Shown here: positions 3,247-35,609 of the stretch, one piece after another
Layout: each line of letters begins with the position of its first letter
Position numbering within the stretch: the stretch's first letter is position 1
Made by a program: the position numbers and the translations under genes
Notes under the pieces: generated by a model
What the model was told of the DNA's origin: nothing
What the model saw: the letters and a program-made list of their open reading frames with translations, nothing else
Database searches by the model: none
From: Alteromonadaceae bacterium
Lineage (GTDB): Bacteria; Pseudomonadota; Gammaproteobacteria; Enterobacterales; Alteromonadaceae
Length of the DNA: 36,841 bases
NCBI GenBank assembly: GCA_015491935.1
Contig: WGGB01000128.1
Location: forward strand, 1 to 36,841
Direction of reading: 5' to 3'

Positions 3247-3365
3247 ATTAATTCAACTTGTAGTAGTTATATATTTCAGTAATGCGTATCTAAGCTAGTA
3301 TCTTAACGTGGCTTGGGTATATAATTAACTAGTTTATTAAACAGTACATATAAAGGTAATGATTA

Positions 3366-4196: not shown

Positions 4197-4246
4197 ATAA
4201 TATTTTTCTTATCTGCTTTAGTCCCTTCTGAATAAATAATTTAAAC

Positions 4247-4264
4247 TTGGTATAGAACTTGAAT
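4247..4264 (+). promoter_or_regulatory. Weak sigma-54-like element before flgB
   Basis: TTGG-TATAGAACTT-GAAT has the -24 GG at 4249-4250 and correct N10 spacing, but the -12 dinucleotide is GA instead of GC. It lies 35 bases upstream of flgB, the expected place for a class III promoter. The imperfect -12 makes this tentative. Confidence 0.4.
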
Positions 4265-4296
4265 GACTACTTTCAATAATATGGAGGTAGCATTTT

Positions 4297-5120: not shown

Positions 5121-5170
5121 ACAGATTTAAGGTTATTTAGTTTACTTATGTTTTTATTTAGGAGTTCAAG

Positions 5171-5857: not shown

Positions 5858-5875
5858 ACAGGTAGGAGTACAAAT

Positions 5876-7285: not shown

Positions 7286-7308
7286 GTTTAATCCTACTCT
7301 TATTTATA

Positions 7309-7343
7309 TTGCCACCTTGTTATTTACTTGGTGGCAAATTTTT
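7309..7343 (+). terminator. Rho-independent terminator after flgE
   Basis: TTGCCACC at 7309-7316 pairs with GGTGGCAA at 7330-7337 (8 bp, 13-base loop), followed by a T-rich run (ATTTTTAT). It lies 24 bases after the flgE stop and separates flgBCDE from flgF. Confidence 0.8.
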
Positions 7344-7381
7344 ATCTCTCATTTCTACCTTTATTTTTTTAAATACATCAT

Positions 7382-7399
7382 TTGGCATTTTTATTGCAT
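7382..7399 (+). promoter_or_regulatory. Sigma-54 promoter before flgF
   Basis: TTGGCATTTTTATTGCAT has GG at 7384-7385 and GC at 7396-7397 with exact N10 spacing, plus the preferred TTGCA at -12. It sits between the flgE terminator and flgF, about 43 bases before the flgF ATG. It probably starts an flgFGHIJ(K) transcript. Confidence 0.85.
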
Positions 7400-7439
7400 T
7401 ATTCTATTTTATTTCGATTAATAAATAGTGAGATTGACT

Positions 7440-15967: not shown

Positions 15968-18052
15968 ATGCCACAGATTATTAATACTAATGTAATGTCG
16001 CTAAATGCACAGCGTCAATTAAATAAATCGCAGTTAATGCAAAATGAGGCTATGGAACGCTTATCCTCTGGTCTTCGTATAAATAGTGCGAAAGACGATG
16101 CCGCTGGTTTAGCTATCTCAACAGGTATGGAGTCACAAATTCGTGGCTTAAATCAAGCCATTCGAAATGCCAATGATGGTATTTCTATGGCGCAAACCGC
16201 GGAAGGTGCAATGGATGAAATGACTAACATACTGCAACGTATGCGTGAACTGTCTATTCAATCAGCTAATGATACCAACTCAGCATCTAACAGAGCATCA
16301 ATTCAAGATGAAGTTGATCAACTATATAGTGAATTAGATCGAATTGCTTCAGTAACTCAGTTTAATGGTGTTAATTTACTTAATGGTTCTGCAGGTGCTA
16401 CTAACTTTCAAATTGGTGCCAATGCAGGTGACTCAATTTCATTTAAGATTGAAGGGGTTACCACTAAAGATTTAAACCTTAATGCGGTAACTGCCACTGG
16501 AGAGTTAAATGGTGGTCGTATTGAATCTATTGCTGGTGGTACACAGTCTGATGCTGTCCTAATTAATGGGGTTACTATTAGTGGTTTAGCTGCTGGTGCT
16601 ACTAATGGTGCTGATACTTTAGTTACGGCTATTAATGCAAATACTGGCTCGTCTGGTGTTACTGCAACAGCTTATAATGTTGTTGAAGGCGTTGCTGGCG
16701 GCTCAGGCGTTATTTCGTCGGGTGGCTTAACTGTAGCTGTTGGTGGTGGGGCTTCGGTAAATATTGGTGCCTCGGGTGGTATGAGTGAATTAGTTTCTAA
16801 TATCAATAGAGATGCAGCGGGAGTTGTAGCGACTTTAAGTAATAGTGGTGCATTAGTTTTAACGAATGATACAGGAAAAACTATTACTGTTGGGGGTAGT
16901 GATATTGGTAATACAGGGTTAGTCGGAGGTACTTATGAAGGTTTTGTTTCCTTAAATAGTTCAGATGGTAGTCCTATTAGTATTCAGGAAAATGCGGCGT
17001 TAACTACAGGTACTGGACCTGGAGGTTCGGCTGTTTTTGCTGACTTGAAAGAAATGGGTTTTAACATACAAACAGGCTCAGATAAAATTACAGGTGGTAA
17101 AGTTAATGGAGATGTCATAACTTCAACTGACAAAATAACTATTAATGGTGTTGAGTTAGGTGCCGTTACTGGTACTTCAGCAGCCGATAAAGCATTTGCT
17201 ATTAATGCCATAAGCGCTGAAACTGGCGTTGCGGCACAAGCGTCAACAACCAAAGATTATACCATTGTTTTTGGTAATGATGCCACTACTGGTGTGGGAG
17301 TTAAAGGATTAACTGGTTCAGCTCCGAATGAATTAAAAATTAATGGTGTAGCTATTACTAGTTTGACAACCGCATCGTCAATGGATGAGGTGGTTTCGGC
17401 TATTAATGGAGCAGGTTTACAAGGGGTTGTAGCAACAGCAACTGAAGCAGGTAAATTAGAATTAACATCAGTTTCAGGGCAAGATGTTGCCTTAACAGTA
17501 GTTAATCCTGCTGGCGCTATACAATCAGGTATTACTACCATCGGTGTTTATGATGACGCTGCGGGTCGTTCAGTTGCTGAGTCTGCAAGTGCATCAGATA
17601 CTAATAGAGGTTCTATAACCTTAACCGGAAAGAATAATGAAGATGTACTTATATCTAGTAAAGCGGGCTCGCAAACTGAGCAAACTACCGCATTAGATAA
17701 GTTAGGCTTAAGTGATTCTGGCGGTAGTAAAACGGCAATAGGTATAGGTTTAAGTGTTACCAGTGTGGCAAATGCTGAGAATAGTATTGCTCGTATTGAT
17801 GATGCGTTACAAAAAATATCTAGTTCACGCGGTTCGCTGGGTGCGATACAAAATCGTTTAAGTTCTACTATTTCTAATTTAGCTAATGTATCACAAAATT
17901 TAAGTGCTGCTAATTCACGAATAAAAGATGCTGATTTTGCTGTAGAAACATCAAGACTCAGTAAAGCACAAATATTACAACAAGCGGGTACCGCTATGTT
18001 ATCGCAAGCGAATGCCTCTACTAAAAACGTATTGTCATTATTAAAAGGATAA
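15968..18052 (+). CDS. fliC: Flagellin 1 (RpoN-type promoter)
   Basis: A 694-aa flagellin, far longer than the roughly 280-500 aa usual for polar flagellins. The D0/D1 N-terminus is canonical ([20 protein letters not shown], then [20 protein letters not shown]), as is the C-terminus ([19 protein letters not shown]). Residues about 170-590 form the outer domains, rich in Gly, Ala, Thr and Ser, and contain several flagellin-IN-like repeats ([27 protein letters not shown]). No cysteine is seen. Its abundant surface Ser/Thr are plausible acceptors for the nonulosonic acid made by the right-hand cluster. The centre shares a 101-nt identical block with flagellin 2. Confidence 0.96.
17372..17472 (+). 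repeat. 101-bp block identical to part of flagellin 2
   Basis: Bases 17372-17472 match 19731-19831 without a difference, including third codon positions. A second shared run of 31 bases is at 17232-17262 and 19579-19609. The conserved N-terminal coding regions of the two genes differ at many synonymous sites, so the central identity is unlikely to come from protein constraint alone. Confidence 0.9.
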
Positions 18053-18389: not shown

Positions 18390-20411
18390 ATGCCAAGTGT
18401 AGTAAATACAAATGTAATGTCATTGAACGCGCAGCGTCAATTAAATAAATCTCAAGCGGCCGGAAATGTAGCTATGGAGCGTTTATCTTCTGGTTTAAGA
18501 ATTAACAGTGCTAAAGATGATGCTGCGGGTTTAGCGATTTCAATAGGTATGGAATCACAAATTCGTGGTTTGAATCAAGGTATTCGTAACGCCAATGATG
18601 GTATATCAATGGCGCAAACCGCTGAAGGTTCAATGAGTGAGATGACTAACATCTTGCAACGTATGCGTGAATTATCCGTTCAGTCTGCAAATGACACCAA
18701 CTCAGCGTCTAACAGAGCGTCAATTCAAGAAGAAGTTGATCAACTTTATAGTGAGTTAGATCGAATCGCTACAGTAACGCAATTTAATGGTATTAATTTA
18801 CTCGATGGTTCAAATAAATCAATTAGCCTTCAAATTGGGGCTAATAAAGGCGATACATTAGGATTTAAAATTGATGGTGTTACGACTCAAGATTTAAACC
18901 TTAATGCTGTTTCTGGTTTAGGCGATCTTAATGGTGGTCGTACAGATGGTGCTTTAACTGCGAATGATATTAAAATTAATGATGTTAGTATTACAGGTAC
19001 AGGTACTGGTGCTGATGCTATTAAAACAGCAATTAATATACAAACAGGTGCTACAGGTGTTACTGCTTCAGCATACAATGTTCTAAATGGTGTTTCTGGT
19101 GCGTCGGGTGTTAGTGCTGCTACTTTATCAATTAATGGTGACACTATAGGTCAGGCATCTTCTATGCAAGAACTAGCTGATAATATAAATCGTGATGCAG
19201 CTGGTGTTACAGCAACCTTAAATAATGAAGGTGCCTTGGTGCTTTCTAATGATACGGGCAAGGGAATTACAGTTGCAAATGGTGGTAACACCGGCTTGTC
19301 AGATGGAACTTATAATGGTTATCTTTCACTTACTTCGGCCTCAGGTGACGCAATATCTATAGCAACAACCAGTACTGGCACTATTTCAGATTTGAAAGCT
19401 ATTGGGTTTAATAATCAGGTTGGTTCAGATAATGTAACAGGTGGGGCAGTGACAGGTACAAGTGTTTTAGCTACTGACAAAGTGACTATCAACGGAGTTG
19501 ATTTAGGTGCTGTTACAGGGACCTCTGCTGCTGATAAAGCGTTTGCTATTAACGCAATAAGTACCCAAACTGGCGTTACGGCACAAGCGTCAACAACCAA
19601 AGATTATACTATTGCTTTTGACACTGCCAACAATGTAACTGGAGTTAGAGGGTTGACTACAGATACAACAACAGCAACTAACACAGACCAATTGAAAATT
19701 AATGGTGTGGCTATTACTGGTTTGTCAACAGCATCGTCAATGGATGAGGTGGTTTCGGCTATTAATGGAGCAGGTTTACAAGGGGTTGTAGCAACAGCAA
19801 CTGAAGCAGGTAAATTAGAATTAACATCAGTATCGGGTCAAGACATCGCTTTATCTATAGCACAGGGTTCTACTGGTACAACTTTATCAGGGATTGCAGC
19901 AAATGGCGTGATTGATGATACTGCGGGTCGTTCTGTTGGTGAATCTGCAAGTGCATCAGATATTAACCGTGGTGATCTTACTTTAACGGGTAAAGATGGT
20001 AAAGATGTTGTCGTTACCAGTGGTGCAAGTACAGAAGCAGCAAAAATTGCTGCATTAGATAAATTAGGCTTGTCTGATACGGGTGGTAATTCAACTGCGA
20101 TAGGTATTGGCTTAAGTGTTACTAATGTAAGTAATGCAGAAAACTCAATTAGTCGTATTGATGATGCTTTAGCCAAAATAACCCAGTCTCGTGGTAAATT
20201 AGGTGCTATACAAAACCGTCTAAGTTCTACTGTTTCTAATTTAGCTAATGTTTCGCAAAATATTTCAGCCGCAAATTCACAAATTAGAGATACCGATTTT
20301 GCTGCAGAAACCTCTAAACTGAGTAAAGCGCAAATATTACAACAAGCAGGTACTGCGATGTTGTCGCAAGCTAACTCTGCACCGCAAGCTGTACTATCAT
20401 TACTAAGGTAA
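18390..20411 (+). CDS. fliC: Flagellin 2 (FliA-type promoter)
   Basis: A 673-aa flagellin, a paralogue of the preceding gene. N-terminal D0/D1 ([40 protein letters not shown]) and C-terminal D0 ([20 protein letters not shown]) are conserved. The variable centre (about residues 165-575) contains repeated flagellin-IN-like units such as INDVSITGTG, INGVDLGAV and INGVAITGL. Like flagellin 1 it is unusually long. It has its own FliA promoter, so the two subunits should differ in timing or amount. GGAG lies 7-10 bases before the ATG. A stem-loop separates it from flaG. Confidence 0.96.
   Translation: MPSVVNTNVMSLNAQRQLNKSQAAGNVAMERLSSGLRINSAKDDAAGLAISIGMESQIRGLNQGIRNANDGISMAQTAEGSMSEMTNILQRMRELSVQSANDTNSASNRASIQEEVDQLYSELDRIATVTQFNGINLLDGSNKSISLQIGANKGDTLGFKIDGVTTQDLNLNAVSGLGDLNGGRTDGALTANDIKINDVSITGTGTGADAIKTAINIQTGATGVTASAYNVLNGVSGASGVSAATLSINGDTIGQASSMQELADNINRDAAGVTATLNNEGALVLSNDTGKGITVANGGNTGLSDGTYNGYLSLTSASGDAISIATTSTGTISDLKAIGFNNQVGSDNVTGGAVTGTSVLATDKVTINGVDLGAVTGTSAADKAFAINAISTQTGVTAQASTTKDYTIAFDTANNVTGVRGLTTDTTTATNTDQLKINGVAITGLSTASSMDEVVSAINGAGLQGVVATATEAGKLELTSVSGQDIALSIAQGSTGTTLSGIAANGVIDDTAGRSVGESASASDINRGDLTLTGKDGKDVVVTSGASTEAAKIAALDKLGLSDTGGNSTAIGIGLSVTNVSNAENSISRIDDALAKITQSRGKLGAIQNRLSSTVSNLANVSQNISAANSQIRDTDFAAETSKLSKAQILQQAGTAMLSQANSAPQAVLSLLR
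19731..19831 (+). repeat. 101-bp block identical to part of flagellin 1
   Basis: Second copy of the block at 17372-17472. It encodes the segment around [20 protein letters not shown] and the following EAGKLELTS in both flagellins. Confidence 0.9.
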
Positions 20412-21171: not shown

Positions 21172-23868
21172 ATGGCAGCATTAACATCAACAGGATTAGG
21201 AACAGGACTTGATATTAATAGTATTGTTACTGGCTTAGTCGCTTCGGAAAAAGACCCTCAAATTAAAGCTTTAACCAAAGAAGCAGAAAAGGTTACCGCA
21301 CAAATATCTGCATTAGGAAAAGTTAATAGCTTATTGTCATCGCTTAAATCTTCTTATACCTCGTTAAATAAAAATTCTACTTATAATGCGGCTACGGCAA
21401 CAAGTAGCGACAGTAGTGTTGTTACTGCAACAACAGGTTTTGGTTCTAAACCTGGTACTTATAATATAGAAGTTCAAGCGTTAGCTCAGCAACATACGCT
21501 TATTACTAAAGCCACTAATGTTTACAATTCTGTTAATGATGTGGTGGGCGGCGGTAGCGTACAAATTCGCTTTGGTTCTTATAGTGGAGCAACATTTACC
21601 CCCGATGCAAATTCAACGAATCAAAATATAACTATTGCGGCTAATGCAAGCCTTAGTGATATACGTGATACTATTAATAATGGTAGTTATGGTGTTAGCG
21701 CAAGCATTTTATATGATGGTAACAGCTACAGATTATCCCTGCAAAATGATAAGTTTGGTGCTAATGGGGCAATGGAAATAACAACTACTGATAACGATGG
21801 AAATAATACCGACACATCAGGTTTGTCAGTATTAACCTATAATGGAACATTGAATAATATGGACCAATCTTTGGCGGCACAAGATGCAAAGGTGGTTTTT
21901 GATGGTTTAGTTGTTACACGAAACAGTAATAAAGTAGATAAGTTAATTGAGGGAGTAACGTTTGATTTAAAAAGTGCCAAAATAGGCAGAAATGTTAAGG
22001 TTAGCGTCGTTCCTGATACTTCGACTATTGAATCAGAAATTAGAGCTTTTGTTGACAACTATAATAATGTGGCGACAAAAATAGCTGAGTTTACCGCGTT
22101 TAATTCACCTACAGATAAAGGGGTGCTTATTGGAGATGCCTCTATACGTAGTATTGAAAGTTTTATGCGATCTATTTTAAATACCCGATTAACAGATATT
22201 AGTGGTTCAGTTAAAAGTATGAGTGATTTAGGTATTACTACTCGGCGTGATGGAACATTAAGTATTAATGAAGACAGTTCTACAGGATTAGCTGTTTTTT
22301 CAGAAGTTCTTTCTAATCATATTGCTGATGTAGCTAAATTTTTTGCAAAGTCAGGAACATCATCTAACTCCAGTATTAGTTATGTTAGCTCAAGTTCGTT
22401 AACTAAAGAAGGCACATACAATGTTAATGTTAGTCAAGTTGCAACTCAGGCTACATTAACTGGCGGGGCAACACTTCCAGCGGATTTTTCTGTCACACCA
22501 TTTGTTGTTAACGAAAGCAATAATAGTTTTATAATGCGTGTGGATGGTATTTTATCGAATGAAATTAAGCTAACCACGGGCAGTTACTCCTCTGAAACAT
22601 CTTTAATTGCTGAAATTCAATCACAAATAAACTCCGATGCTACTTTAAAAAACAAAGGTGTTGCTGTGAATGTTGGTATTAAAAACCAACAGTTAACCAT
22701 TAACTCTAATCGTTTTGGCAGTGGCTCTTTAATTGCTGTTTTGTCCTTAGATGATAGTGTAACAGGTGCGCCTAACCTTGATTTTTCGACTCCATCTTTA
22801 GCTATTTCTGCCTCAAGTACCTTTGATATCAGTATTGATGGTAGTGTTGGGAGTATTGACTTGTCTGGAAGTTATAATGTCGAGTCTGATTTTATCTCGG
22901 CATTACAAGCATCAATATTAGCGCAAACTGGGAAAAGTGCGACCGTTTCTATCGCTAACAATCAATTGTCTATTAAGTCTACTACGGGAGGAAATGTTAC
23001 CATTAGCAATGTAGGCGCTACAGCCTTGGCTGAGTTAGGTTTAAGTGATACCTCTAATGCTTCTAATTTAGGTCTGTCAGTTGGCGGTGGAGCCTCAGGT
23101 GTAAACGCAGAGGGAACAATAAATGGCGCTGCAGCTTTGGGCGATGGTCAATTTTTATTAGCACAAAGTACTAGCGGTAAGGCGAGTGGTATTAGGGTTG
23201 AAGTTAAAGGGGGTGATTTTATTTACCATGCTAGCGACGCAGTAAAAAATTATGCATTTAATGCCGCAGCAAGTAGCACTTTTCAATTGAGTGTTGATGG
23301 TACATTATTGACATCATTAGATTTAAGTGGGCAATCATTTACTTCTGAGAGTGATGTAACTACGACTATTCAAACGTTATTAAATGCTGACGCTAATTTA
23401 TCTGCAGCGGGTGAATCTGTTACCGTAAGTATGGTGAATGGCAAGTTACAATTTACGTCTAATAATGCTACGTCACAGTTGAGCGTGGTTGCAGTTGGCG
23501 CAGGAGCTACCTCAGATTTTGGGCTTTCAATTGCCTCAGCAACAATTGACAGTACCGTTAGTTTTTCTGAAGGTATAACGTCTAAAATGAATGATTTTTT
23601 AGGCGCTATTATTGATAATAGTATATCTAAAGTGCAAGGTGATGTTGATGTATCAAAAGGTATTATTGATGGTAAAACAGATTCTCTTTTTAAGAAGCTA
23701 TTAGAGGTGGATCGTCGTGAAGCTGATATTAATCGTCGTATGTCGGCATATGAAAAACGTTTATTTAAACAATTTAATGCTATGGATTTGATTGTTTCTA
23801 AATTGAATGGAACTACTCAATCTCTAAAAGGTTCGTTAGCTGCGTTACCTGGTTATACCCAAAAATAA
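21172..23868 (+). CDS. fliD: FliD filament cap (HAP2), enlarged
   Basis: An 898-aa FliD; family members are usually about 450-700 aa. FliD_N is at residues 1-110 (TSTGLGTGLDINSIVTGLVA). The first part of FliD_C is at about 235-405 (VVPDTSTIESEIRAFVDNYN, MSDLGITTRRDGTLSIN). The C-terminal helical end is at about 805-898 (READINRRMSAYEKRLFKQF). Between about 405 and 800 lies an insertion with three related units beginning near residues 450, 548 and 701, each with an xDG turn, an SETS/ESD helix start and a NxQL/NGKL strand. FliD caps the filament and directs flagellin folding. GAGGAGG precedes the ATG. No fliS or fliT follows within the window. Confidence 0.95.
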   Translation: MAALTSTGLGTGLDINSIVTGLVASEKDPQIKALTKEAEKVTAQISALGKVNSLLSSLKSSYTSLNKNSTYNAATATSSDSSVVTATTGFGSKPGTYNIEVQALAQQHTLITKATNVYNSVNDVVGGGSVQIRFGSYSGATFTPDANSTNQNITIAANASLSDIRDTINNGSYGVSASILYDGNSYRLSLQNDKFGANGAMEITTTDNDGNNTDTSGLSVLTYNGTLNNMDQSLAAQDAKVVFDGLVVTRNSNKVDKLIEGVTFDLKSAKIGRNVKVSVVPDTSTIESEIRAFVDNYNNVATKIAEFTAFNSPTDKGVLIGDASIRSIESFMRSILNTRLTDISGSVKSMSDLGITTRRDGTLSINEDSSTGLAVFSEVLSNHIADVAKFFAKSGTSSNSSISYVSSSSLTKEGTYNVNVSQVATQATLTGGATLPADFSVTPFVVNESNNSFIMRVDGILSNEIKLTTGSYSSETSLIAEIQSQINSDATLKNKGVAVNVGIKNQQLTINSNRFGSGSLIAVLSLDDSVTGAPNLDFSTPSLAISASSTFDISIDGSVGSIDLSGSYNVESDFISALQASILAQTGKSATVSIANNQLSIKSTTGGNVTISNVGATALAELGLSDTSNASNLGLSVGGGASGVNAEGTINGAAALGDGQFLLAQSTSGKASGIRVEVKGGDFIYHASDAVKNYAFNAAASSTFQLSVDGTLLTSLDLSGQSFTSESDVTTTIQTLLNADANLSAAGESVTVSMVNGKLQFTSNNATSQLSVVAVGAGATSDFGLSIASATIDSTVSFSEGITSKMNDFLGAIIDNSISKVQGDVDVSKGIIDGKTDSLFKKLLEVDRREADINRRMSAYEKRLFKQFNAMDLIVSKLNGTTQSLKGSLAALPGYTQK

Positions 23869-26635: not shown

Positions 26636-27220
26636 TCAAGCGCTAGGCATTTCAACTATGAGTTTCGGTAGTATGTATTGTTGTCGTTTAAATAGGCAAA
26701 CTTCGACTAAATCACATGGTTGTTCATTTAACATATAATGATCTTTTAAAACACAATCGTTGCTAAACCCCGCTTTTAAAAATGCTTTAGTACTACCAAT
26801 ATTGGGCTTGTATGCACCAGCAGATAATTTACGTAATTGTAAGTATTCAAAGCTATAGCGAGAAATTAATTGAATAGCTTGAGTGGCAATACCTTTACCC
26901 CAAGATTTTTTATCACCAATAAATAAACTCACTTCACCAACATGATGATGAGGCTTAATACCGCCTATTTTAATATTACCAATATGTTTATGACTTTCTT
27001 TTAAACGAATGGTAAATAAATGTTCATTAGGATCGGATATCATTAAATGGATAAAGTTTTTTATTGCTGTTAAATCTTGTACATAAAATCTGGTTTCTAA
27101 ATATTGATTGATCAGAGGGTCATTCAACCATTCTACATATTCATAACTGGCATCTTGTTCAGTGATAGTTTGTAAATAAACGGACGGCACCTGTGGACTT
27201 GATATTCTAATGGTTTTCAT
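26636..27220 (-). CDS. pseH: GNAT N-acetyltransferase, probable PseH
   Basis: About 194 aa from the ATG at 27220, chosen because AAAGGT lies 7-12 bases upstream and the GNAT fold starts right after it. Longer in-frame starts at 27301, next to the preceding stop, or 27370 add a non-conserved leader. A RimJ/RimL-type GNAT core is visible: WLNDPLINQYLETR, IGNIKIGGI, then the acetyl-CoA loop SWGKGIATQAIQLISRY and NIGSTKAFLKAGF. PseH acetylates N4 of the UDP-linked altrosamine intermediate. It is the only acetyltransferase in the operon, the main reason for assigning it to this step. Last gene of the operon. Confidence 0.78.
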   Translation of the reverse strand: MKTIRISSPQVPSVYLQTITEQDASYEYVEWLNDPLINQYLETRFYVQDLTAIKNFIHLMISDPNEHLFTIRLKESHKHIGNIKIGGIKPHHHVGEVSLFIGDKKSWGKGIATQAIQLISRYSFEYLQLRKLSAGAYKPNIGSTKAFLKAGFSNDCVLKDHYMLNEQPCDLVEVCLFKRQQYILPKLIVEMPSA

Positions 27221-27303
27221 GTGCTTACCTTTTTGTTGATTTGATATCTTATTAGAACACGAATTGTTGGCTATAAAATAACTGGCTCTAAGTTTAGCCA
27301 TAT

Positions 27304-27987
27304 CTACACTATTTTTCTGATCAGCATAAACGCTTCTGCTCGCTCTAAACCTACTTGATTTCCACGCCACTGATTTAAAATATTAATGGCTTTTATTGAG
27401 CGGCTATGAGGGAAATCTCTCATTTCTGGTTGATAATACGCCAATAACTGTTGTTTTCTCGTTTGTAATTGTGATATGTCGATAAAATAATTAGGCATAA
27501 AGTAATCGCCTATGCTAGTGCTTGACCATTCGGTACTTGAATTAACTTCAAAGGTTAAAATTGTTGTTATCGTACTATTCGGTTGTGGTCGGCAAGCGGT
27601 CATTACAGCTTGGTGAACAATACGGTGGTCGATGTTTAAATCACCTCCATGGTGGGTATATATCATATTTGGCTGAAAATCATCGATAACTTTTTCAATA
27701 GCTTGAGTGACATTTATTAACGGTACTTGGTCCATTTGATTATCAGGAAAATCATAGTTATAAAATTTATCAGTATTTAAAAGTTGACAAGCTTGTTGTT
27801 GAGCGTTGAGGCGTTTATTAATTTCTTTTTGCTCTTTTTCTTGTATTAATGTGTTGCGTGCGCTGATCCCATTTGTCATATAAATTATTTGAATTTTATC
27901 ACCGTTATCACTATGTTTTAGTAATGTTCCACCACAACCGATGGCTTCATCATCAGCATGCGCTACAATAACGAGTACTTTATTCAT
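27304..27987 (-). CDS. PIG-L/LmbE-family N-deacetylase
   Basis: About 227 aa from the ATG at 27987, which overlaps the pseI stop as ATGA and has GGGAG upstream. An alternative ATG at 28002 adds five residues. The metal-binding and catalytic motif AHADDE is at residues 9-14, followed by GCGG. A second metal-ligand region YTHHGGDLNIDHRIVHQAV is near residues 115-133. Family members remove acetyl groups from N-acetyl sugars with zinc. It is not one of the standard PseB-C-H-G-I-F enzymes. In this operon it could deacetylate a nonulosonic acid or precursor so that another acyl group can be attached (inference). Confidence 0.88.
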   Translation of the reverse strand: MNKVLVIVAHADDEAIGCGGTLLKHSDNGDKIQIIYMTNGISARNTLIQEKEQKEINKRLNAQQQACQLLNTDKFYNYDFPDNQMDQVPLINVTQAIEKVIDDFQPNMIYTHHGGDLNIDHRIVHQAVMTACRPQPNSTITTILTFEVNSSTEWSSTSIGDYFMPNYFIDISQLQTRKQQLLAYYQPEMRDFPHSRSIKAINILNQWRGNQVGLERAEAFMLIRKIV

Positions 27988-29045
27988 TTTATTAACTCCC
28001 ATGAAACGGGGGTGCCGCGTTTTATATTACTGTTTACTTGTTTGCCAATTATTTCGGGTAAATATTTAGGTGCTAAACCAAACCCCGGACGAATACGCTT
28101 TACATGCTGCTCTGTAATCGTCGTATCTTTGAAAATATCTTCAACAAAAAATAATGAACGTCTAAATTTTAAACTTTCTTGTTCTGCCGGTTTTCTCTCG
28201 TAACCAGCTTTGCCTAAAGAAGCCCAAGTAAGTTTACTTTGCTCTACCAGTACTTTTAACTCTTCAGGCTCAAGTGAAAACTCACTGTCAGGGCCTTTAT
28301 CTTCTCGACTTAAGGTAACATGTTTTTCTATGATACATGCGTCTAAGGCAACCGCTGATGTAGCTATAGTAGTTCCTAAAGAATGATCTGATAACCCTGA
28401 CAATACCTGCCATCGCTCAGCTATATCTTGTATTGTTCTTAGATTGCTTTGTTCAATAGGTGCTGGATAAGCACTAATACAATGTAATAATACTAAATCC
28501 ATCCCGCCTGCATTTTTGACCGTGTCGACAAGGTCATCTATTTCATCTTCATTCGCTAGGCCGGTGGAAATTATTAATGGTTTGCCTGTTTTAGCTACTT
28601 TTTCAATTAAAGGTAAATCAGTGGCTTCAAATGAGGCTATTTTGTATGCAGGACAGTCAAGAGACTCTAATAAATCGACAGCAGTTTCATCAAATGGTGT
28701 GCTAAATATTGTGATCCCTATTTTTTTTGCATGAGCAAACATTGCTTGATGCCATTCAAAAGGTGTTTGTGCCCATTTATAAAGTTCGTACAGTTTATAG
28801 CCATGCCACAACCCACCATTAATTTTAAAATATTCATTGTCACAATCAATAGTCATGGTGTCTGCGGTATAGGTTTGAATTTTTACCGCATCGGCTCCCA
28901 TTGCTTTTGCCATGTCTATAGTTTTTAAAGCACGATCTAGTTCACCATTATGATTTGCTGACATTTCTGCGATTATATAGGGTGAATGTTTATTGCCAAT
29001 TTTTCTGTTATTTATGGTTATTTCATTATTAAAGTGCTGATTCAT
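27984..29045 (-). CDS. pseI: PseI pseudaminic acid synthase
   Basis: A 353-aa NeuB/PseI-type synthase. The TIM-barrel begins with SPYIIAEMSANHNGELDRAL (about residues 21-40), followed by GADAVKIQTYTADTMT, STPFDETAV, KIASFEATDLPLI and SDHSLGTTIA. The C-terminal SAF (antifreeze-like) domain spans about residues 290-353 (RRSLFFVEDI, RPGFGLAP). It condenses 2,4-diacetamido-2,4,6-trideoxy-L-altrose with phosphoenolpyruvate to pseudaminic acid. YTADTMTID and the genomic link to PseB/PseC favour PseI over sialic or legionaminic acid synthase. It lies 4 bp after the preceding formyltransferase-like gene. Confidence 0.94.
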   Translation of the reverse strand: MNQHFNNEITINNRKIGNKHSPYIIAEMSANHNGELDRALKTIDMAKAMGADAVKIQTYTADTMTIDCDNEYFKINGGLWHGYKLYELYKWAQTPFEWHQAMFAHAKKIGITIFSTPFDETAVDLLESLDCPAYKIASFEATDLPLIEKVAKTGKPLIISTGLANEDEIDDLVDTVKNAGGMDLVLLHCISAYPAPIEQSNLRTIQDIAERWQVLSGLSDHSLGTTIATSAVALDACIIEKHVTLSREDKGPDSEFSLEPEELKVLVEQSKLTWASLGKAGYERKPAEQESLKFRRSLFFVEDIFKDTTITEQHVKRIRPGFGLAPKYLPEIIGKQVNSNIKRGTPVSWELIK

Positions 29046-29049
29046 GTGA

Positions 29050-29733
29050 TTACTCTAATGTGTTTTTTATGGTTACTTTTGCCGAGACAATGCCATTTTC
29101 AATACTTGCCTGTGAAAACTCTAGTAGTTGACTATCACGTTTTATAAAAGCTTTCGGATAGCTTGGTGCGTCAAGCATGCGTATAAAATCATATAATTGT
29201 TTGTTTGATAAATTACGAGGTATTTCACTTTGCGCAGGCGTACGCCTTTTAAAGTGCGTAATTTTTCCTGTTTGTTCTTTAGGGATGGGAGCTGTTGAAA
29301 TAATTTCAGTAATCATCTTGTGTATCACTTTAGCGGCTAGATGAAATATTTCTAAAGCCGAGCCTTTTAGTGATAGATCGTGCTTTGTATATACTGGTCC
29401 TGCATCTAATGAGGAAGTCATTTTTAGAGCGGATATTTTTGTTTCAGTATGACCTTTTATAATAAGGTTTTGTAGTGGACTGCCTCCTCTACCATAAGGT
29501 AAATCAGTCATATGGAAACATACGCAGGTATATTTTGATAAAATATTATTTGGAACTATCCAACTCCAATGTGGAAAAAAAATATAATCGGGGTTAAAGT
29601 CCGATAAAAATTCTAATGTTAATTGTTCTGGTTGAGAAATTAACTGCCAGTTTCCTTGGATTTTTTTACTATATTGTTCAAATTCTGTAATATTCCATGG
29701 ATGAATAGTTGCTACTAGGTAATTATTCATCAT
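29050..29733 (-). CDS. Formyltransferase-fold protein 2 (sugar N-formyltransferase-like)
   Basis: A 227-aa protein related to methionyl-tRNA/sugar formyltransferases. Residues 71-91 (VCFHMTDLPYGRGGSPLQNL...) match the HxSxLPxxRGxxP loop, with His74. LDAGPVY supplies the usual catalytic Asp (D110). A C-terminal stretch with FKRRTPAQSEIP, similar to ArnA-type formyltransferases, is near residues 165-177. The Asn two residues before the catalytic His in Fmt and ArnA (N-x-H) is Cys72 here. It overlaps the first formyltransferase-like gene by 11 bases and so is probably translationally coupled. It may formylate an amino sugar in the Pse pathway (inference). It is too short for genuine Fmt (about 310 aa). 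Confidence 0.8.
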   Translation of the reverse strand: MMNNYLVATIHPWNITEFEQYSKKIQGNWQLISQPEQLTLEFLSDFNPDYIFFPHWSWIVPNNILSKYTCVCFHMTDLPYGRGGSPLQNLIIKGHTETKISALKMTSSLDAGPVYTKHDLSLKGSALEIFHLAAKVIHKMITEIISTAPIPKEQTGKITHFKRRTPAQSEIPRNLSNKQLYDFIRMLDAPSYPKAFIKRDSQLLEFSQASIENGIVSAKVTIKNTLE

Positions 29734-30361
29734 TTGTTATCGCCAAGGTGTATTTTTTTCCTTGATATTCGAAAAAAGCAGGATAGTGTTCATTATCGAC
29801 AAGACGTAATAAATTAAATTGCTCTTTCAAGCTTTTATCAATGTCAAGTTTACTGTCTTTTGGTTTTCTTTGGGGATAATAACTTTCTTCCCCTATTTGT
29901 TTTTTAGATTGTAGTTGTCCATATTGTTCAATAAATTTAAGGCATAGCTCTACCGTTTTTTTCCCTTGTAAATCTCGCCATTCTTGATGTAATTCAGTGC
30001 CTGTTAATTGGATGAAGTCAGTTAACCAAATATCACCGGAGTCTACTTTTTTACCTGCGCTAATTAAAGAAATGGGGATCTTAGATTCTCCAGCTAATAT
30101 TTGCCAACTCATCGGTGCAAAACCTTTACCTTGAGGTAATGCACTTTCGTGTACAACTAGATTATAGCGATTTTTATTAAGTGTGACTTCGTCGAGTATT
30201 TGCGTACAACCTAATATAAATAATAGCCAACCATTATTGATTTCTGATGAATGTCGACAAAGTTTTGTCTTAAAACCTAACATATTAAGCTCTTTAATTA
30301 AGGCCTCAGTGTAGGGCAAAATCCAGCTGTCATTATCGACTAAAACATATATATTTTTCAT
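29723..30361 (-). CDS. Formyltransferase-fold protein 1 (sugar N-formyltransferase-like)
   Basis: A 212-aa protein with a formyltransferase-like core: YNLVVHESALPQGKGFAPMS (His71) matches the HxSxLPxxRGxxP region, and KKVDSGDIWL supplies the Asp (D107). The N-terminal half is shorter and unusual (YVLVDNDSWILPYTEALIKE). The C-terminus has YYPQRKPKDSKLDIDK, then RLVDNEHYPAFFEYQGKKYT, a small domain like that of Fmt relatives. The N-x-H asparagine is replaced by Val69. Only low similarity to its neighbour is visible, so this is not a recent duplication. It overlaps the pseG stop as ATGA. Substrate unknown. Confidence 0.75.
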   Translation of the reverse strand: MKNIYVLVDNDSWILPYTEALIKELNMLGFKTKLCRHSSEINNGWLLFILGCTQILDEVTLNKNRYNLVVHESALPQGKGFAPMSWQILAGESKIPISLISAGKKVDSGDIWLTDFIQLTGTELHQEWRDLQGKKTVELCLKFIEQYGQLQSKKQIGEESYYPQRKPKDSKLDIDKSLKEQFNLLRLVDNEHYPAFFEYQGKKYTLAITNDE

Positions 30362-31479
30362 TGTGTTATTACTTTATTTTTTAATAAGTTTGCGACTATA
30401 TCGGCGCCTAAACCGCTACAACAACTAAAGCTAGATTTTACCATGTTTATATAAAGGGCAGGCGAGTTAATTGTTGCTAACAATTGTTGAAGAAAGTTCT
30501 TTTGAGTTAACGCATAAAAGTAACCTAAATTTATAGCTGCGCCGGCTTGTGTTAAATTGTGGGCGATAGTTTCTTGGTTTTTAGCGCTAACAATGGTTAA
30601 AGTAGGTAAACCTAAACAACAGCGTTCCCATGCAGTTGCTCCTGCTGAGCCAATAGCTATATCAGCCTCTAGCATTAATTTGGCCATTGATTTTGGCTTG
30701 ACGATGATCTTTATCCAATCATATTGATGAGAGAATGATTTAAGTTGTTCTAGATAAGTACTCATCGGACTAATAACTACTTGTATCGTTAAACTAGGTT
30801 GGCTGTTTTTGATCGTTATTAGGGCATAAATAATTTGTTCGCTAATATTGTCAGGATCGGTGCCACCCATTGAAATCAGCACATTTTCAATGGATTTAGT
30901 GTTTACCCTTTTTATTTTTGCTAAAGGTCTAAGCTGAGAAAATTCATCTCGTAATAGCATAAAATCAGCACCTAGCAATAATTGACAATTTTTTGGTACT
31001 AAACGTTGATAGTCTTGTTTTCGTCTATTGAGAGTTTGATCTAATAATAGATCACAATAATGCGCTCTATTAGCTAAGTCATCAATGACCATAATTTTAT
31101 TGGCTAATGGTTTTATGAGTTTTTGCCAGTGTCTATCTAAACTGTAGTGATCAACAATCAACCAATCTAACCAAGGGTGATATTTTAAAGCTTGTTTTAC
31201 TTCAAGGGCATCTTGTTGGTAAGAACAGCCTAACCATTTTCTATCATCAACTTCTTGTTCGATATTTTCTATTGGAGCAGACAAAGATAAAACCGTAAAG
31301 CCTTGTTCAACAATAAAAGCAATTAAATTACCCTGATGTTGTTTACATAAAAAGACGATTTGGCAATTTTGTTGTTGTAATTTTTTCGCCAATGTTAAGC
31401 AACGCATTACATGCCCTGTCCCCATACGGGTAGAGGCATCTACTCTAATAGCTATATTTGTTAACAGGTTAGCTTTCAT
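30358..31479 (-). CDS. pseG: PseG UDP-2,4-diacetamido-2,4,6-trideoxy-beta-L-altropyranose hydrolase
   Basis: A 373-aa GT-B-type hydrolase. The N-terminus carries the PseG signature IAIRVDASTRMGTGHVMRCL (His23 is the likely catalytic base). Later motifs are WLIVDHYSLDRHW, MVIDDLANRAHYCDLLLDQT, VLISMGGTDPDN (nucleotide-sugar site, about residues 207-218) and AIGSAGATAWERCCLGLPTL. PseG removes UDP to release the free sugar for PseI. It follows the class III aminotransferase by 39 bp and is joined to the first formyltransferase-like gene by an ATGA overlap. Confidence 0.95.
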   Translation of the reverse strand: MKANLLTNIAIRVDASTRMGTGHVMRCLTLAKKLQQQNCQIVFLCKQHQGNLIAFIVEQGFTVLSLSAPIENIEQEVDDRKWLGCSYQQDALEVKQALKYHPWLDWLIVDHYSLDRHWQKLIKPLANKIMVIDDLANRAHYCDLLLDQTLNRRKQDYQRLVPKNCQLLLGADFMLLRDEFSQLRPLAKIKRVNTKSIENVLISMGGTDPDNISEQIIYALITIKNSQPSLTIQVVISPMSTYLEQLKSFSHQYDWIKIIVKPKSMAKLMLEADIAIGSAGATAWERCCLGLPTLTIVSAKNQETIAHNLTQAGAAINLGYFYALTQKNFLQQLLATINSPALYINMVKSSFSCCSGLGADIVANLLKNKVITQ

Positions 31480-31518
31480 ATTGCTGTTTTCTTTAGCTAG
31501 TTTTATGTTGAAATAGTT

Positions 31519-32802
31519 TTATCTTACTTTAAATAAAGGTTGTAAAACTTGACCTCGAAATACTTGCTCAAAATTTTGTTGGATAATGGTATCTGCTATT
31601 AAGGTTAATACATCTTGATAAGCATTCAACAATATTTTTATATCACTTGTCTGATGAGAAAAATTCAAATTGTGTCCTCCGCCAAGTAGTAAACCTCGTT
31701 GATTCATTTCTTGTAAAAATAATGACTTTAACTGCCAGCTGGAATAATTTTCACTATCGAGCAATTGTAAAAATGACCAAGCAGGGTGGCCACAAACATT
31801 AAGCCATTTAGGTGAACCCAATTTTATTACTATATTTTGCAAACCTTGTTTTAATTGTTCACCAATACCATGAATATGCGTTAATACTTGTTGTTCTTTA
31901 ATTTTTGTTAAGGTGGCTTTTGTTGCTGCTAATGATAGAGTTTCGCCTGCAAAAGTACCTGAAAAAAAGATATCTTCCATTAGCATCATCACATCTTTTC
32001 TACCGACAACCGCAGAAATCGGATAACCATTTGCCATGCCTTTACCAAAGGTTGCTATATCGGGGGTAACATTAAATAATTCTTGAGCACCACCTAGCGA
32101 AAACCTAAAACCTGTGATCATTTCATCAAATATCAATAAAGTATTGTTGTGCTTGCATAAGGTTTTAACTTTGGTTAAAAAATCATGCTCAGGATAATGT
32201 AGATTCATCGGCTCCATTATTACTGCAGCAAATTGGTATTGTTCAAATAGTGAATTTAATGAATCAATATCATTATAGATAAAAGCATGAGTAAGTGCCT
32301 TGGTTACTTCTGGCACACCTAAATCTCTTGATGTTGAACCTATATACCAATCTTGCCAGCCATGATAGCCACAAACGGCAATATGATCTTTGCCTGTAAA
32401 TGCTCGCGCTAAACGAATGGCTGCCGAAGTTGCGTCGCTGCCATTTTTACCAAAGCGTACCATTTCAGCACAGGGCACCATATCTACTAGCATTTCAGCA
32501 ACGTCCATTTCTAAACGGTGGGGCAGAGAAAAGGTTACACCAGATTTTAATTGCTTAATGACGGCATTATCGACATCCTCATCACAATAGCCAAGAGACA
32601 CCGATAATAAGCCACTAACATAATCGGTATATTGATTGCCATCAACATCCCAAACAGTGCAGCCTAAACCGCGCTCAATAAAAAAAGGAGATACACCGTA
32701 AGGATAAGCTGTTTTAGACTTACTAAAAGTTTGAGAACCTAATGGTATGGTCTTTTCAGCGCGATTAAGTAATTGTTCTGATTGTTTGAATGTTCTATTC
32801 AA
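31519..32802 (-). CDS. Class III (GSA-aminomutase-like) PLP aminotransferase
   Basis: About 427 aa from a TTG at 32802, which gives the usual N-terminus NRTFKQSEQLLNRAEKTIPL and then GSQTFSKS; no ATG lies near, and another TTG at 32820 adds six residues. AAGGA is upstream. PLP-fold motifs are FGKNGSDATSAAIRLARAFT, YHGWQDWYIG, LLIFDEMITGFRFS and FGKGMANGYP with the Schiff-base lysine K254. It resembles glutamate-1-semialdehyde aminomutase, but its place in a sugar operon argues against a tetrapyrrole role. It overlaps the end of the cytidylyltransferase gene. Probably it aminates or isomerises a nucleotide-linked or small metabolite used to decorate the glycan (inference). Confidence 0.85.
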   Translation of the reverse strand: MNRTFKQSEQLLNRAEKTIPLGSQTFSKSKTAYPYGVSPFFIERGLGCTVWDVDGNQYTDYVSGLLSVSLGYCDEDVDNAVIKQLKSGVTFSLPHRLEMDVAEMLVDMVPCAEMVRFGKNGSDATSAAIRLARAFTGKDHIAVCGYHGWQDWYIGSTSRDLGVPEVTKALTHAFIYNDIDSLNSLFEQYQFAAVIMEPMNLHYPEHDFLTKVKTLCKHNNTLLIFDEMITGFRFSLGGAQELFNVTPDIATFGKGMANGYPISAVVGRKDVMMLMEDIFFSGTFAGETLSLAATKATLTKIKEQQVLTHIHGIGEQLKQGLQNIVIKLGSPKWLNVCGHPAWSFLQLLDSENYSSWQLKSLFLQEMNQRGLLLGGGHNLNFSHQTSDIKILLNAYQDVLTLIADTIIQQNFEQVFRGQVLQPLFKVR

Positions 32803-33559
32803 AGCCTTGTTCCTTATCAATAATTAACGATTTCAATAACCCTTCATCACGGGCGATATTTTGATTGATTGTCTTTAATTCTGGTTTTTCTTCAAGAAGT
32901 GTTAATATATCTTGCATGGTAAAAAGTGGATTTATTGGATATAAATTTTTGTATATTTCAGTGATAAATTTAAAGTCACTTGCTTCGTCCACTGTCCATC
33001 TTAGTTGCGATAAGTCTGGTGTATATTGAAAGTCAGTTAATTTAAACAATTCACTATGATTACGAATATATTGCGTAACATGTTCACGTTCTGATGGTTT
33101 AATTGCTTGTTGATGACTTTGTATGAGAGACTTGATCGTAAGTACTTCTATATCTAAACCATCAGGTAAACAAGGTTGGCAGCAATTGCTGGTATAGTCG
33201 CTCTGAGTTTTTATGTGTAAATTAATGACGCCATCAATTATTTCCGCGTCTGTTAAAGGACAGTCAGCTGTTAATCTACTTATATGATCTGCTTTGTATA
33301 AACTAGCACATTGGTAATAGCGGTCTAGTACATCATCTAAACTACCTCTAAAACAATCTATATTTAGTGATTGACATAATTCTTCAATATTATCGTCACT
33401 TGTTTGTGTGCTTGTTGCCACAACAATTTTTGTGATTAACTTACTCTGTTTGATTCGGTCTATTTGGTGTTGCAGCATTGGTTTACCTAAAATAGGCTTT
33501 AACACTTTATTAGGCAGTCTAGATGAAGACATACGAGCTTGAATTATCGCAATGATCAT
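32795..33559 (-). CDS. SpsF/COG1861-type cytidylyltransferase, candidate CMP-nonulosonate synthetase
   Basis: About 254 aa from the ATG at 33559, preceded by GGGAGG and starting 2 bp after the aldo/keto reductase stop; a start at 33580 would overlap that gene. The nucleotidyltransferase N-terminus reads MIIAIIQARMSSSRLPNKVL, followed by KPMLQHQIDRI, DDVLDRYYQCA and RLTADCPLTDAEIIDG. This is the SpsF form, not the IIPARGGSKRIPRKN form of canonical PseF/NeuA. No canonical PseF is in the operon, so this protein is the best candidate for activating the Pse derivative with CTP. Alternatively it activates a different compound made by its two flanking enzymes. Confidence 0.85.
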   Translation of the reverse strand: MIIAIIQARMSSSRLPNKVLKPILGKPMLQHQIDRIKQSKLITKIVVATSTQTSDDNIEELCQSLNIDCFRGSLDDVLDRYYQCASLYKADHISRLTADCPLTDAEIIDGVINLHIKTQSDYTSNCCQPCLPDGLDIEVLTIKSLIQSHQQAIKPSEREHVTQYIRNHSELFKLTDFQYTPDLSQLRWTVDEASDFKFITEIYKNLYPINPLFTMQDILTLLEEKPELKTINQNIARDEGLLKSLIIDKEQGFE

Positions 33560-33561
33560 TA

Positions 33562-34449
33562 TTAACCTCCCGTTTGCCAATTACTGGGAATTAATAGTTG
33601 TTCATCGTTACAAGTGAGTATTGATAAATCAGCATTTATTGCTAAAGCAACATCATAGGCTTCAATAATTTCTTTAAGTTGATGAGTATTGCAACAACCG
33701 ACTATTATTTTAGTAATGGCTGTATTTTTACAACCAATAGCCAGAGATAGTGCTAGTGGGGATACTTCTAGATGTTGCGCCATATTATGAAATTTTATTA
33801 AGTATGAAGTATAAGGCTTAAAATAATCAGTGAGTTGAGAAATATCCATTAATAATAAACCTTGTAAAAACAAAGAACGGCAATGTACTTCTATTTCTTG
33901 TTCCGCTAATTTTTTCAACCATCCTGTGGTTATAAAACGTTGATCTAATGCATTTAACGGTAGCTGTACTATGTCTATATTAAAATTATTTACGCAATAT
34001 TCAAGCTGCATTGGTGTGTAAATGGAAACGCCAACTTTTTTTATATTTCCCAATGCTTTTTGTTGTATCAAAGCATCAATTCTTGCTTGTGCCAAAGGTG
34101 ATTGTATAAGATCATCAACCTGATGAAATAATACTGCATCAAGTTGTTTTACTTTTAGTTGTGTTAAGCTTTTTTCGATAAATTGTGCTATTTCGCTCTG
34201 GCTTTCAGTATTTTTTAGCGGTGGTATTTTACTGACAATATTGAAATGTGTTGTTAATTTACTTTGCCCTAAAGCTTGTTCACTATTACCGTAGGCGCTG
34301 GCAGTATCAAGTGTTGTTATACCAACCTCGGTTGCCAAGGAGAGTATATTTTTTATTTCTTGAGGGCTAACTTGCCCTTGATTATTACTAACCCCATAAT
34401 CACAACCGAATTGAACGGTACCTAGTGCTAGCTTCATATCTGACTTCAT
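33562..34449 (-). CDS. Aldo/keto reductase
   Basis: A 295-aa TIM-barrel oxidoreductase. The family N-terminus LALGTVQFGCDYGVSNNQGQ is clear and the catalytic tetrad can be placed at D48 and Y53 (LDTASAYGNSEQALG), K74 (IVSKIPP) and H109 (VLFHQVDD). Such enzymes reduce carbonyls with NADPH. The start overlaps the pseC stop as ATGA, so it is coupled to the Pse operon. Aldo/keto reductases of this type often sit beside SpsF-like cytidylyltransferases in surface-sugar clusters, but no substrate is established here. It is outside the standard Pse route. Confidence 0.88.
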   Translation of the reverse strand: MKSDMKLALGTVQFGCDYGVSNNQGQVSPQEIKNILSLATEVGITTLDTASAYGNSEQALGQSKLTTHFNIVSKIPPLKNTESQSEIAQFIEKSLTQLKVKQLDAVLFHQVDDLIQSPLAQARIDALIQQKALGNIKKVGVSIYTPMQLEYCVNNFNIDIVQLPLNALDQRFITTGWLKKLAEQEIEVHCRSLFLQGLLLMDISQLTDYFKPYTSYLIKFHNMAQHLEVSPLALSLAIGCKNTAITKIIVGCCNTHQLKEIIEAYDVALAINADLSILTCNDEQLLIPSNWQTGG

Positions 34450-35609
34450 AAAAGCGCTTTAACCTTATCAATAATATAATTTTGTTCTTGTAAAGTTAGC
34501 TTTGGATGCAAAGGTAAAGTGATCGCGCGTTGATAATATTGTTCTGCATTAGGAAAATCTCCCTGTTTAAAGCCTAAATTTTGATAAAACGGCTGTAAGT
34601 GCACAGGAATATAATGTACATGAGCACAAATATTCTGTTCGCGTAGCGTTATAATCACTTGCTTGTGCTGTTCTGAATTTGCTTCGGGTAATAAGATTAA
34701 ATATAAATGATAAGCTGATAAGCAGTCTTTATTGGCAATTAAAGGGGTTATGTCTGTTTCTTTAAAAGCAACGTCATATATTTTAGCTATTTTATTGCGC
34801 TGTGCAATAAAATGATCAAGGCGCTTTAACTGAGATACCCCCAATGCTGCTTGTAATTCAGTCATACGATAATTAAATCCCAAAGCAATTTGTTGGTAAT
34901 ACCAAGGGCCGTGACTTGCTTCTGTCATTTCTTCTGGGTCTGAAGTAATGCCATGACTTCGATATAACTGCATTTTTTTAGCTAAGTCAGCATTATTAGT
35001 AACCGCCATACCGCCTTCTGCGGAAGTGATTATTTTTACGGGGTGAAAGCTAAAGACGGTAATGTCAGAATATTGACAATTTCCAATAGGCTTACCTTGA
35101 TATGAACCACCAATTGCGTGAGAGGCATCTTCAATAATGTTAAAACCATACTCTTGAGAAAGTTGATAAATAGCTTGCATATCGCAAGACTGTCCCGCTA
35201 AATGAACAGGAATAACAACTTTTGGTAAACAGTTTTTTTGCTTAGCTTGTTTTAATTTTTCAGTTAAAATACGTGTTGACATGTTTCCTGAAGATAAATC
35301 AATATCGACAAAATCAATTGTAGCCCCACAGTACAGCGCACAATTGGCACTAGCAACAAAGGTAATAGGCGATGTCCAAACAATATCACTTTTACTCACC
35401 TCTAACGCTAAGCAAGCAATATGCAATGCTGATGTGGCACTGTTTACGGTAATCGCATATTTTGCTTGGCATTTATTTGCTAGTGTTTGTTCAAATAAGG
35501 GGACTTTAGGCCCTTGAGTTAACCAATCAGATTGCAAAACACTAATTACTGAATCAACGTCTTCTTGATTTATATCTTGCTTACCATAAGGGATCATTGT
35601 ATCAATCAT
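34446..35609 (-). CDS. pseC: PseC UDP-4-keto-6-deoxy-N-acetyl-L-altrosamine aminotransferase
   Basis: A 387-aa DegT/DnrJ-type PLP aminotransferase. Motifs: MIPYGKQDINQEDVDSVISV at the N-terminus, LQSDWLTQGPKVPLFE, VNSATSALHIACLAL, IIEDASHAIGGSY and FSFHPVKIITSAEGG with Schiff-base K192. PseC moves an amino group from glutamate to C4 of the PseB product. Many homologues begin at the second methionine (35597, MIPYG), so the true start may be 12 bases shorter. The gene is 6 bp after pseB. Confidence 0.94.
   Translation of the reverse strand: MIDTMIPYGKQDINQEDVDSVISVLQSDWLTQGPKVPLFEQTLANKCQAKYAITVNSATSALHIACLALEVSKSDIVWTSPITFVASANCALYCGATIDFVDIDLSSGNMSTRILTEKLKQAKQKNCLPKVVIPVHLAGQSCDMQAIYQLSQEYGFNIIEDASHAIGGSYQGKPIGNCQYSDITVFSFHPVKIITSAEGGMAVTNNADLAKKMQLYRSHGITSDPEEMTEASHGPWYYQQIALGFNYRMTELQAALGVSQLKRLDHFIAQRNKIAKIYDVAFKETDITPLIANKDCLSAYHLYLILLPEANSEQHKQVIITLREQNICAHVHYIPVHLQPFYQNLGFKQGDFPNAEQYYQRAITLPLHPKLTLQEQNYIIDKVKALL

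Follow-up and report, generated by a model that had tools for sequence, protein, structure and literature searches.

Among the closest described counterparts of the protein considered here is the flagellar cap protein FliD of Campylobacter jejuni, in which a domain termed D4 is inserted in the D1 helix bundle (PMC7316729). This domain is positioned between D3 and FlgL, at a distance from the cap cavity, and has been judged not to be part of flagellin incorporation (PMC12221982). The 2020 structure left the role of D4 open, with the suggestion that it may explain the binding of heparin by FliD; a figure legend states that among the aligned species D4 is "found only in FliDcj", and the text calls such insertions not unusual (PMC7316729). 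In Pseudomonas, the heads of FliD can be swapped and the function of the cap survives; replacement size was considered not to be limiting (PMC8533109). Extra FliD domains are treated species by species in the structure papers, and the role of D4 is left open there. In the literature searched, which lacked most subscription journals, no report was found on the prevalence of D4, its likeness to the FliD head or a link with flagellin size, and a term search showed FliD to be absent from the main text of the giant-flagellin paper (PMC6248924). The window analyzed here (contig WGGB01000128.1 of an Alteromonadaceae bacterium, assembly GCA_015491935.1, the whole stretch of 36,841 nucleotides) encodes a FliD of 898 amino acids (aa) whose D4 contains three related units, or lobes.

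The protein matches the Pfam families FliD_N (residues 11-108, E 1.7e-26, 93.1 bits against a cut-off of 24.8) and FliD_C (E 1.5e-41, 142.9 bits against a cut-off of 25.4), the latter in two stretches of which residues 236-489 are the best, and its gene adjoins flagellin and flaG genes, as is characteristic of a FliD cap. An initial annotation made from the DNA letters had proposed that FliD_C is interrupted by an insertion of about 400 residues with three related units near residues 450, 548 and 701, and this description holds: the insertion (residues ~391-800) splits the C-terminal half of FliD and contains units of about 85 aa at residues ~449-524, 546-625 and 699-787 (somewhat wider limits are given in Table 1), in which the shared xDG, SETS/ESD and VSxxNxxL patterns are present. 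Alignment and a structural model (mean predicted local distance difference test score, pLDDT, of 79.6 at full length) place the extra domain within the D1 helix bundle, which makes the protein a D4-type FliD; in the model, D4 is rich in β-structure and emerges from the D1 leg. The head shows no enlargement. Residues 73-282 align to the E. coli D2-D3 without insertion, the model head matches 5h5w_B with a Z of 21.1 over 189 residues at 1.7 Å, which is the usual D2-D3, and the head region of the window FliD contains no extra domain of the Vibrio or Helicobacter type. The likeness to C. jejuni FliD (6SIH, 9GSX) lies in the D4 inserted in the D1 helix bundle, and a profile of 12 D4-bearing FliDs matches 9gsx over profile positions 238-530, into D4; the D4 model compares with 9gsx_Z at a Z of 6.5 with a root-mean-square deviation (rmsd) of 19.1 Å. 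The difference is that the window FliD has three lobes in about 400 aa.

The mutual likeness of the three units is significant. Smith-Waterman scores between them are 88 (units 1 and 2), 105 (1 and 3) and 125 (2 and 3), and 0 of 1000 shuffles per pair score as high. A hidden Markov model whose build included the window's own units locates them at residues 440-526, 540-617 and 693-778. A non-circular profile, built from 67 units of other species with the window and L031, L032, L093 and L113 left out, also finds all three, with 90.2, 19.2 and 46.6 bits for units 1, 2 and 3, against 10.0 bits for the best of 500 shuffles of the insertion; unit 2, having the lowest score, is the most diverged. No further copy of the unit outside the three in FliD is found at E ≤ 0.01 in the genome itself (296 contigs, 91.6% complete). 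In a tree of 80 units and 88 columns, units 2 and 3 group together, with a support of only 79, and are not joined to unit 1 of their own lineage; they may have come either from unit 1 or from elsewhere.

A FliD with a one-unit insertion, about 690 aa long, is a widespread type, in which the domain inserted in the D1 leg has about 200 aa. The unit is found in 61 of 369 gammaproteobacterial genomes (E ≤ 1e-5), all of which are among the 186 with a FliD_N match, and at the same threshold each of the 60 unit-bearing genomes other than that of the window has one unit match. The unit-bearing open reading frames (ORFs) of this class sample have 661-739 codons, with two exceptions of 865 (G230) and 788 (G414). 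The single unit of these two proteins (L124 and L144) is located at residues 618-700 and 539-614, respectively, and the extra residues precede it; to judge from the sequence, this is another kind of enlargement than that of the window FliD. The window ORF is the longest among the FliD_N matches listed, which do not include G230.

In the order sample, 13 of 197 genomes have the unit (E ≤ 1e-6); ten of these belong to a single genus of another family and have one unit each. A search of 59 genomes with the whole protein, the window's own included, finds a match in 46. A sister genome of the same genus (G002/L031) matches the window FliD over residues 1-897 with 88% identity, and a contig scan finds three units in two Colwellia metagenome-assembled genomes (MAGs), L032 and L033, with 57% identity and 916 codons; because the long form recurs in these genomes, an assembly artefact is an unlikely explanation for it. 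No genome other than these four was seen to have three units. Another member of the genus (G003) has a FliD of 692 aa without residues ~529-625 and ~683-793, that is, without units 2 and 3, and the fourth (G001, 78% complete) has no match to the whole window FliD. One-unit records from the contig scan are two further Colwellia MAGs (L034 and L035) and Thiocystis minor (L036), and G050, of the same order, has two units in a FliD that lies apart from the three-unit clade. The unit number among relatives is therefore 1, 2 or 3. The initial annotation had allowed that the length could be an old family trait, which turns out to be half correct: of the extra ~440 aa, about 230 belong to the widespread FliD type, and the other ~210 do not.

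A comparison of D4 with the rest of the protein suggests, and does not prove, that D4 arose by duplication of the head of the same protein, with a D2-like frame and a D3-like lobe. The whole D4 aligns with the protein's own D2-D3 in hhalign (probability 95.7, E 3.5e-9, 23% identity over 180 columns), and the control alignment with its own D1 gives no match (probability 0.1). Residues 92-180 score 79 against residues 411-522, a value reached in 0 of 1000 shuffles (the top shuffle is 78), and the stretch 400-530 is the only part of D4 that resembles the head in this test, narrowly. Four of six D4 segments give a weak Pfam FliD_N match (best E 0.0019), that of the window segment being 16.7 bits and under the cut-off of 24.8. 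The order of elements in a modeled unit is roughly strand-strand-helix-strand-strand-strand, like that of the protein's own D3 (residues 124-221). The D4-alone model matches FliD heads over 122-147 residues (5fhy, Z 8.0; 6kty, 7.7; 5xlk, 7.4; 6sih, 7.0), and its unit 3 matches FliD D3 (5h5v) with a Z of 8.1 over 103 residues and the Vibrio flagellin D2 (9n8a) with a Z of 8.8. The whole D4 therefore resembles the D2-D3 heads (E. coli 5H5V/5H5W, Serratia 5XLK) by both profile and model, and differs in sitting in the leg instead of the head.

Several results weigh against this second-head reading. Single units aligned to the head in hhalign reach probabilities of only 6.5, 0.1 and 1.1 for units 1, 2 and 3, and units 2 and 3 score no better against the head than shuffles do. 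The D4 modeled alone has a medium mean pLDDT of 67.4, with values over 70 for most units and under 50 in parts of the frame, and Z values of 7-8 are near the stated background of the structure-comparison tool. The best VIA matches of the D4 model are phage sheath domains, above any FliD head, and a Foldseek search with the model gives a single match with E < 0.001, to H. pylori FliD (6iwy, 1.7e-9), at an rmsd of 27.7 Å. For the frame and unit 1, a second head is the likely reading; in the case of units 2 and 3 it derives solely from their likeness to unit 1 and is unproved.

The sheath matches are to the insertion domains of phage tail sheath proteins (XM1 7KH1 and E217 8FVG), which have the same fold as the predicted D4 model (8fvg, Z 10.3 over 115 residues; 7kh1, Z 10.3 over 107). 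The likeness of this sheath domain to FliD D3 has already been published (PMC10457771, PMC12846349). The sequence link between D4 and the sheath domain is not significant (9mt4_Q, E 0.067; 7kh1, E 1.4), and a recent import of D4 from phage, though conceivable, is unsupported, with one record in the phage collection at E 3; the fold is shared. Two PHROGs families of unknown function are matched by three of six D4 segments (best E 0.00037). Matches to HPr, MLA10 and other Protein Data Bank entries are attributed to chance because they are different molecules with E of 0.0087 or worse.

The units had also been described as similar to flagellin-IN domains. Their fold resembles that of flagellar head domains, but no likeness to flagellins was found in their sequence. 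At this level, an origin of the units as copies of flagellin outer domains is not supported: hhalign against eight flagellins gives probabilities of at most 2.2, and the unit profile gives at most 8.4 bits on the window flagellins, against 10.0 for shuffles. Flagellin_IN (PF07196), which both window flagellins match, is absent from the 8 Pfam families that 6 D4 segments match with E values of 10 or less. The FliD head itself matches flagellin residues 242-325 with a probability of 85.7.

A core tree of 147 FliDs (453 columns, D4 columns excluded, quick method) contains 73 D4 bearers, 71 proteins without D4 and 3 unlabeled ones (L182-L184); L172 was set by hand as D4-bearing because its unit was found in the class-sample search. 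The distribution of D4 on this tree needs 4 changes, compared with a mean of 48.2 for shuffled labels, and the starred branches force at least 2; the D4-bearing form is a heritable type of FliD. The window protein, L031 and L032 form a clade with a support of 100 within a D4 clade of 12 rows, also with a support of 100, that further includes G003, L034, L035 and six members of the other-family genus. As one unit is the common state, the addition of two lobes on the three-unit branch is the simplest reading, and the tree is best read as D4 having gained units 2 and 3, at two sites of the frame, on the branch that would lead to the window, L031 and L032. Against a firmer history stand 55 of 144 inner branches with a support below 80, a support of 93 for the branch that sets off the D4-less half, and an arbitrary root; because of this root and the weak branches, the tree by itself does not distinguish gain of D4 from loss. 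The D4 side includes four FliDs that lack the domain (L197, L203, L224 and L216), in part at poorly supported forks. The D4-less half, in turn, includes seven proteins from other genera of the window's family (L006, L009-L011, L018, L019 and L024), which suggests that the flagellar locus may have been transferred horizontally instead of being inherited with the family.

Substitutions in all three lobes are constrained about as much as in the core. Between the window protein and L031, the ratio of nonsynonymous to synonymous substitution rates (dN/dS) is 0.084, 0.126 and 0.156 for units 1-3, compared with values of 0.091 in the head, 0.074 in D1 and 0.214 in the C-terminal part.

The presence of D4 is associated with large flagellins. 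Apart from the window's own, 60 genomes bear the unit; regions were fetched for 58 of them (all but G454 and G575), and 59 D4-less regions were picked not at random but by the room on the contig among the FliD_N matches listed. From 120 class-sample regions, 8 without a complete flagellin and 4 FliDs of unclear type (L172 and L182-L184) were dropped, which leaves 108 with a clear D4 state and a complete adjacent flagellin. A flagellin of at least 400 aa is located beside FliD in 47 of 51 regions with D4 and in 26 of 57 without (Fisher p 1.3e-7), and the median of the longest adjacent flagellin is 564 aa (n = 51) compared with 322 aa (n = 57). In genus g172, the two states occur together: G421 has a FliD of 692 aa with D4 and a flagellin of 505 aa, whereas G291 has a FliD of 467 aa without D4 and a flagellin of 302 aa. 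Among the four tips that lack D4 on the D4 side of the tree, three have flagellins of 302-323 aa and the fourth one of 1045 aa (Fisher 0.005 against the bearers, a comparison chosen post hoc); this fourth tip (L216, G527) is the clearest exception to the association. Flagellin ORFs have 673-734 codons in the three-unit lineage and 657-671 in the one-unit sisters L094, L034 and L035, where the window's ORFs are measured from their start codons, those of the other genomes between stop codons, and the split ORF of L034 is left out. In that contig, the first flagellin gene lies in two overlapping frames (2593-3504 and 3360-4730), by a frameshift or an assembly error.

The initial annotation had called the flagellins (694 and 673 aa), FlgK and FlgL longer than usual and had proposed a joint expansion of the outer domains of the whole filament and junction. 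The first statement is fair, as FlgK has 701 aa against class-sample medians of 635.5-650 and FlgL 503 aa against 407.5-410. The second is partly borne out, for flagellin and the presence of D4 but not for the filament and junction as a whole: FlgL lengths do not differ between regions with and without D4 (medians 407.5, n = 28, and 410, n = 23; p 0.47), those of FlgK barely differ (650, n = 23, and 635.5, n = 20; p 0.066), and co-expansion of the junction is not supported.

The placement of D4 in C. jejuni, the interchangeable heads of Pseudomonas FliD and the link to flagellin size lead us to infer an outer skirt. The D4 of the window's cap may serve as such a skirt for decorated filaments, an explanation that we favor tentatively and regard as somewhat short of probable. 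As in the Campylobacter cap, D4 would be located outside the chamber of assembly, with the cap plate on one side and the outer domains of the underlying subunits on the other; as a skirt or bumper, it would make the cap wide enough for flagellins with large outer domains, and the skirt would grow with the number of lobes. Insertion of flagellin as such probably does not require D4. A broader form, in which D4 is an internal duplicate of the head in an old FliD subfamily and an adjustable skirt, kept with large-outer-domain flagellins, tending to be lost when flagellins shrink and lengthened lobe by lobe in the window lineage, is conceivable but rather unlikely as a whole.

Some of the data count against the skirt. 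No Campylobacter chain is found in a profile search with the D4 segment alone. Some D4-less FliDs have long flagellins (26 of 57, up to 1045 aa) and some D4 bearers short ones (4 of 51), and FlgL is no longer in D4 bearers. Within D4 bearers, the lengths of FliD and flagellin are unrelated (rho -0.05), and a one-unit FliD of Thiocystis minor (L036) lies beside a flagellin ORF of 1499 codons (2956-7452, directly upstream of flaG and fliD); a modest link exists within D4-less FliDs (rho 0.44, p 6e-4). The association with flagellin size amounts to 2 (starred) to 4 (all) independent pairs, and descent could explain it; in the starred pairs, the flagellin trait goes the same way in 1.3 of 2 on average and the opposite way in 0.1, and with so few contrasts a phylogenetic test of the link is not possible.

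The main rival is adhesion, in which D4 and the extra lobes would bind surfaces, particles, glycans or host matrix and the number of lobes would follow the ligand and not the filament. The variable unit number among relatives, the Ser/Thr fraction of units 2 and 3 (0.30, compared with 0.22 in the head) and the connection of D4 with heparin binding drawn by the authors of the C. jejuni cap structure (PMC7316729) are in agreement with this proposal, which we nevertheless consider doubtful: no binding family is found above cut-off in D4 in Pfam, PHROGs or NCBIfam, and adhesion alone does not predict that D4 tracks flagellin size between genomes. Neutral elaboration comes next and is less likely still. 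If the D1 loop tolerates insertions, lobes may have been duplicated and kept without a new function, as the tolerance of the Pseudomonas cap for head swaps, the swimming of Vibrio D4 deletion mutants (PMC13106801), the missing length correlation within D4 bearers and the separate position of the two-unit FliD of G050 would allow; however, the units stay in frame between the window and L032, dN/dS is 0.08-0.25 where computable, and only four D4-less tips are found on the D4 side of the tree. Coupling to a membrane sheath, in which the enlarged cap would touch the inner leaflet as proposed for the Vibrio FliD D4, is very improbable: deletion of the Vibrio domain left empty sheath extensions at some tips (3 in 13 cells, compared with 0 in 15 wild-type cells) of cells that swam, but that domain, a lineage-specific cap enlargement like the Helicobacter D4-D5 and the window D4, is described as a pair of helical domains on the cap top (PMC13106801), whereas the window D4 is β-rich and leaves from the D1 leg, the head being of ordinary size.

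The features of the locus are listed in Table 1.

Table 1. Positions of fliD, its parts and the adjacent flagellar genes in the window
Feature	Position	Strand	Basis
fliD, flagellar filament cap protein, 898 aa	21172..23868	+	ORF; FliD_N and FliD_C matches
Head domains D2-D3 (residues 73-282)	21388..22017	+	model m96fb405952e8 vs 5h5w_B
Insertion D4 in D1 helix bundle (residues ~391-800)	22342..23571	+	alignment with D4-less and one-unit relatives; flanking model helices 384-391, 831-890
D4 frame, first half (residues ~395-435, holds GTYNVNVSQVATQATL), D2-start-like	22354..22476	+	self-comparison, weak FliD_N
Unit 1 (residues 440-526), the unit present in one-unit relatives	22489..22749	+	profile searches, alignment
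Unit 2 (residues ~540-625), extra, tandem to unit 1	22789..23046	+	profile searches; absent from one-unit relatives
D4 frame, second half (residues ~640-690)	23089..23241	+	conserved in one-unit relatives
Unit 3 (residues ~693-787), extra, inserted behind GIRVEVKGG and not in tandem with unit 2	23248..23532	+	profile searches; absent from one-unit relatives
C-terminal D1/D0 helices (residues 800-898)	23569..23865	+	model helices 802-813, 831-890
Flagellin, 694 aa, Flagellin_IN in 3 stretches	15968..18052	+	ORF, Pfam
Flagellin, 673 aa, Flagellin_IN in 2 stretches	18390..20411	+	ORF, Pfam
flaG, 131 aa	20505..20900	+	NCBIfam PRK08868, E 3.6e-15, below its cut-off

Just downstream of fliD, the stretch 24538-26556 matches the model of the flagellin modification protein PseD (E 6.4e-26, 91.1 bits, far under the cut-off of 670), and a similar ORF is present in the fetched regions of 6 of 15 one-unit relatives. 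A pseudaminic acid cluster follows on the minus strand (26636-35609), with PseC, PseG and PseI above cut-off and weak PseH- and PseF-like matches. It also holds two adjacent formyltransferase-like ORFs (29050-29733 and 29723-30361) and ORFs similar to a BshB-type deacetylase, a glutamate-1-semialdehyde aminomutase and an aldo-keto reductase; the cluster could perhaps make a formylated variant of pseudaminic acid.

For the window alone, the narrower point is that its FliD is an enlarged member of a known D4 cap type. As a common heritable type that goes with large flagellins, D4 provides a hypothesis of function, and the natural one-, two- and three-lobed versions, together with the pair from one genus with and without D4, provide the material for a test. 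If the adjustable-skirt reading is true, the cap would be fitted to the outer surface of the filament and not only to its core.

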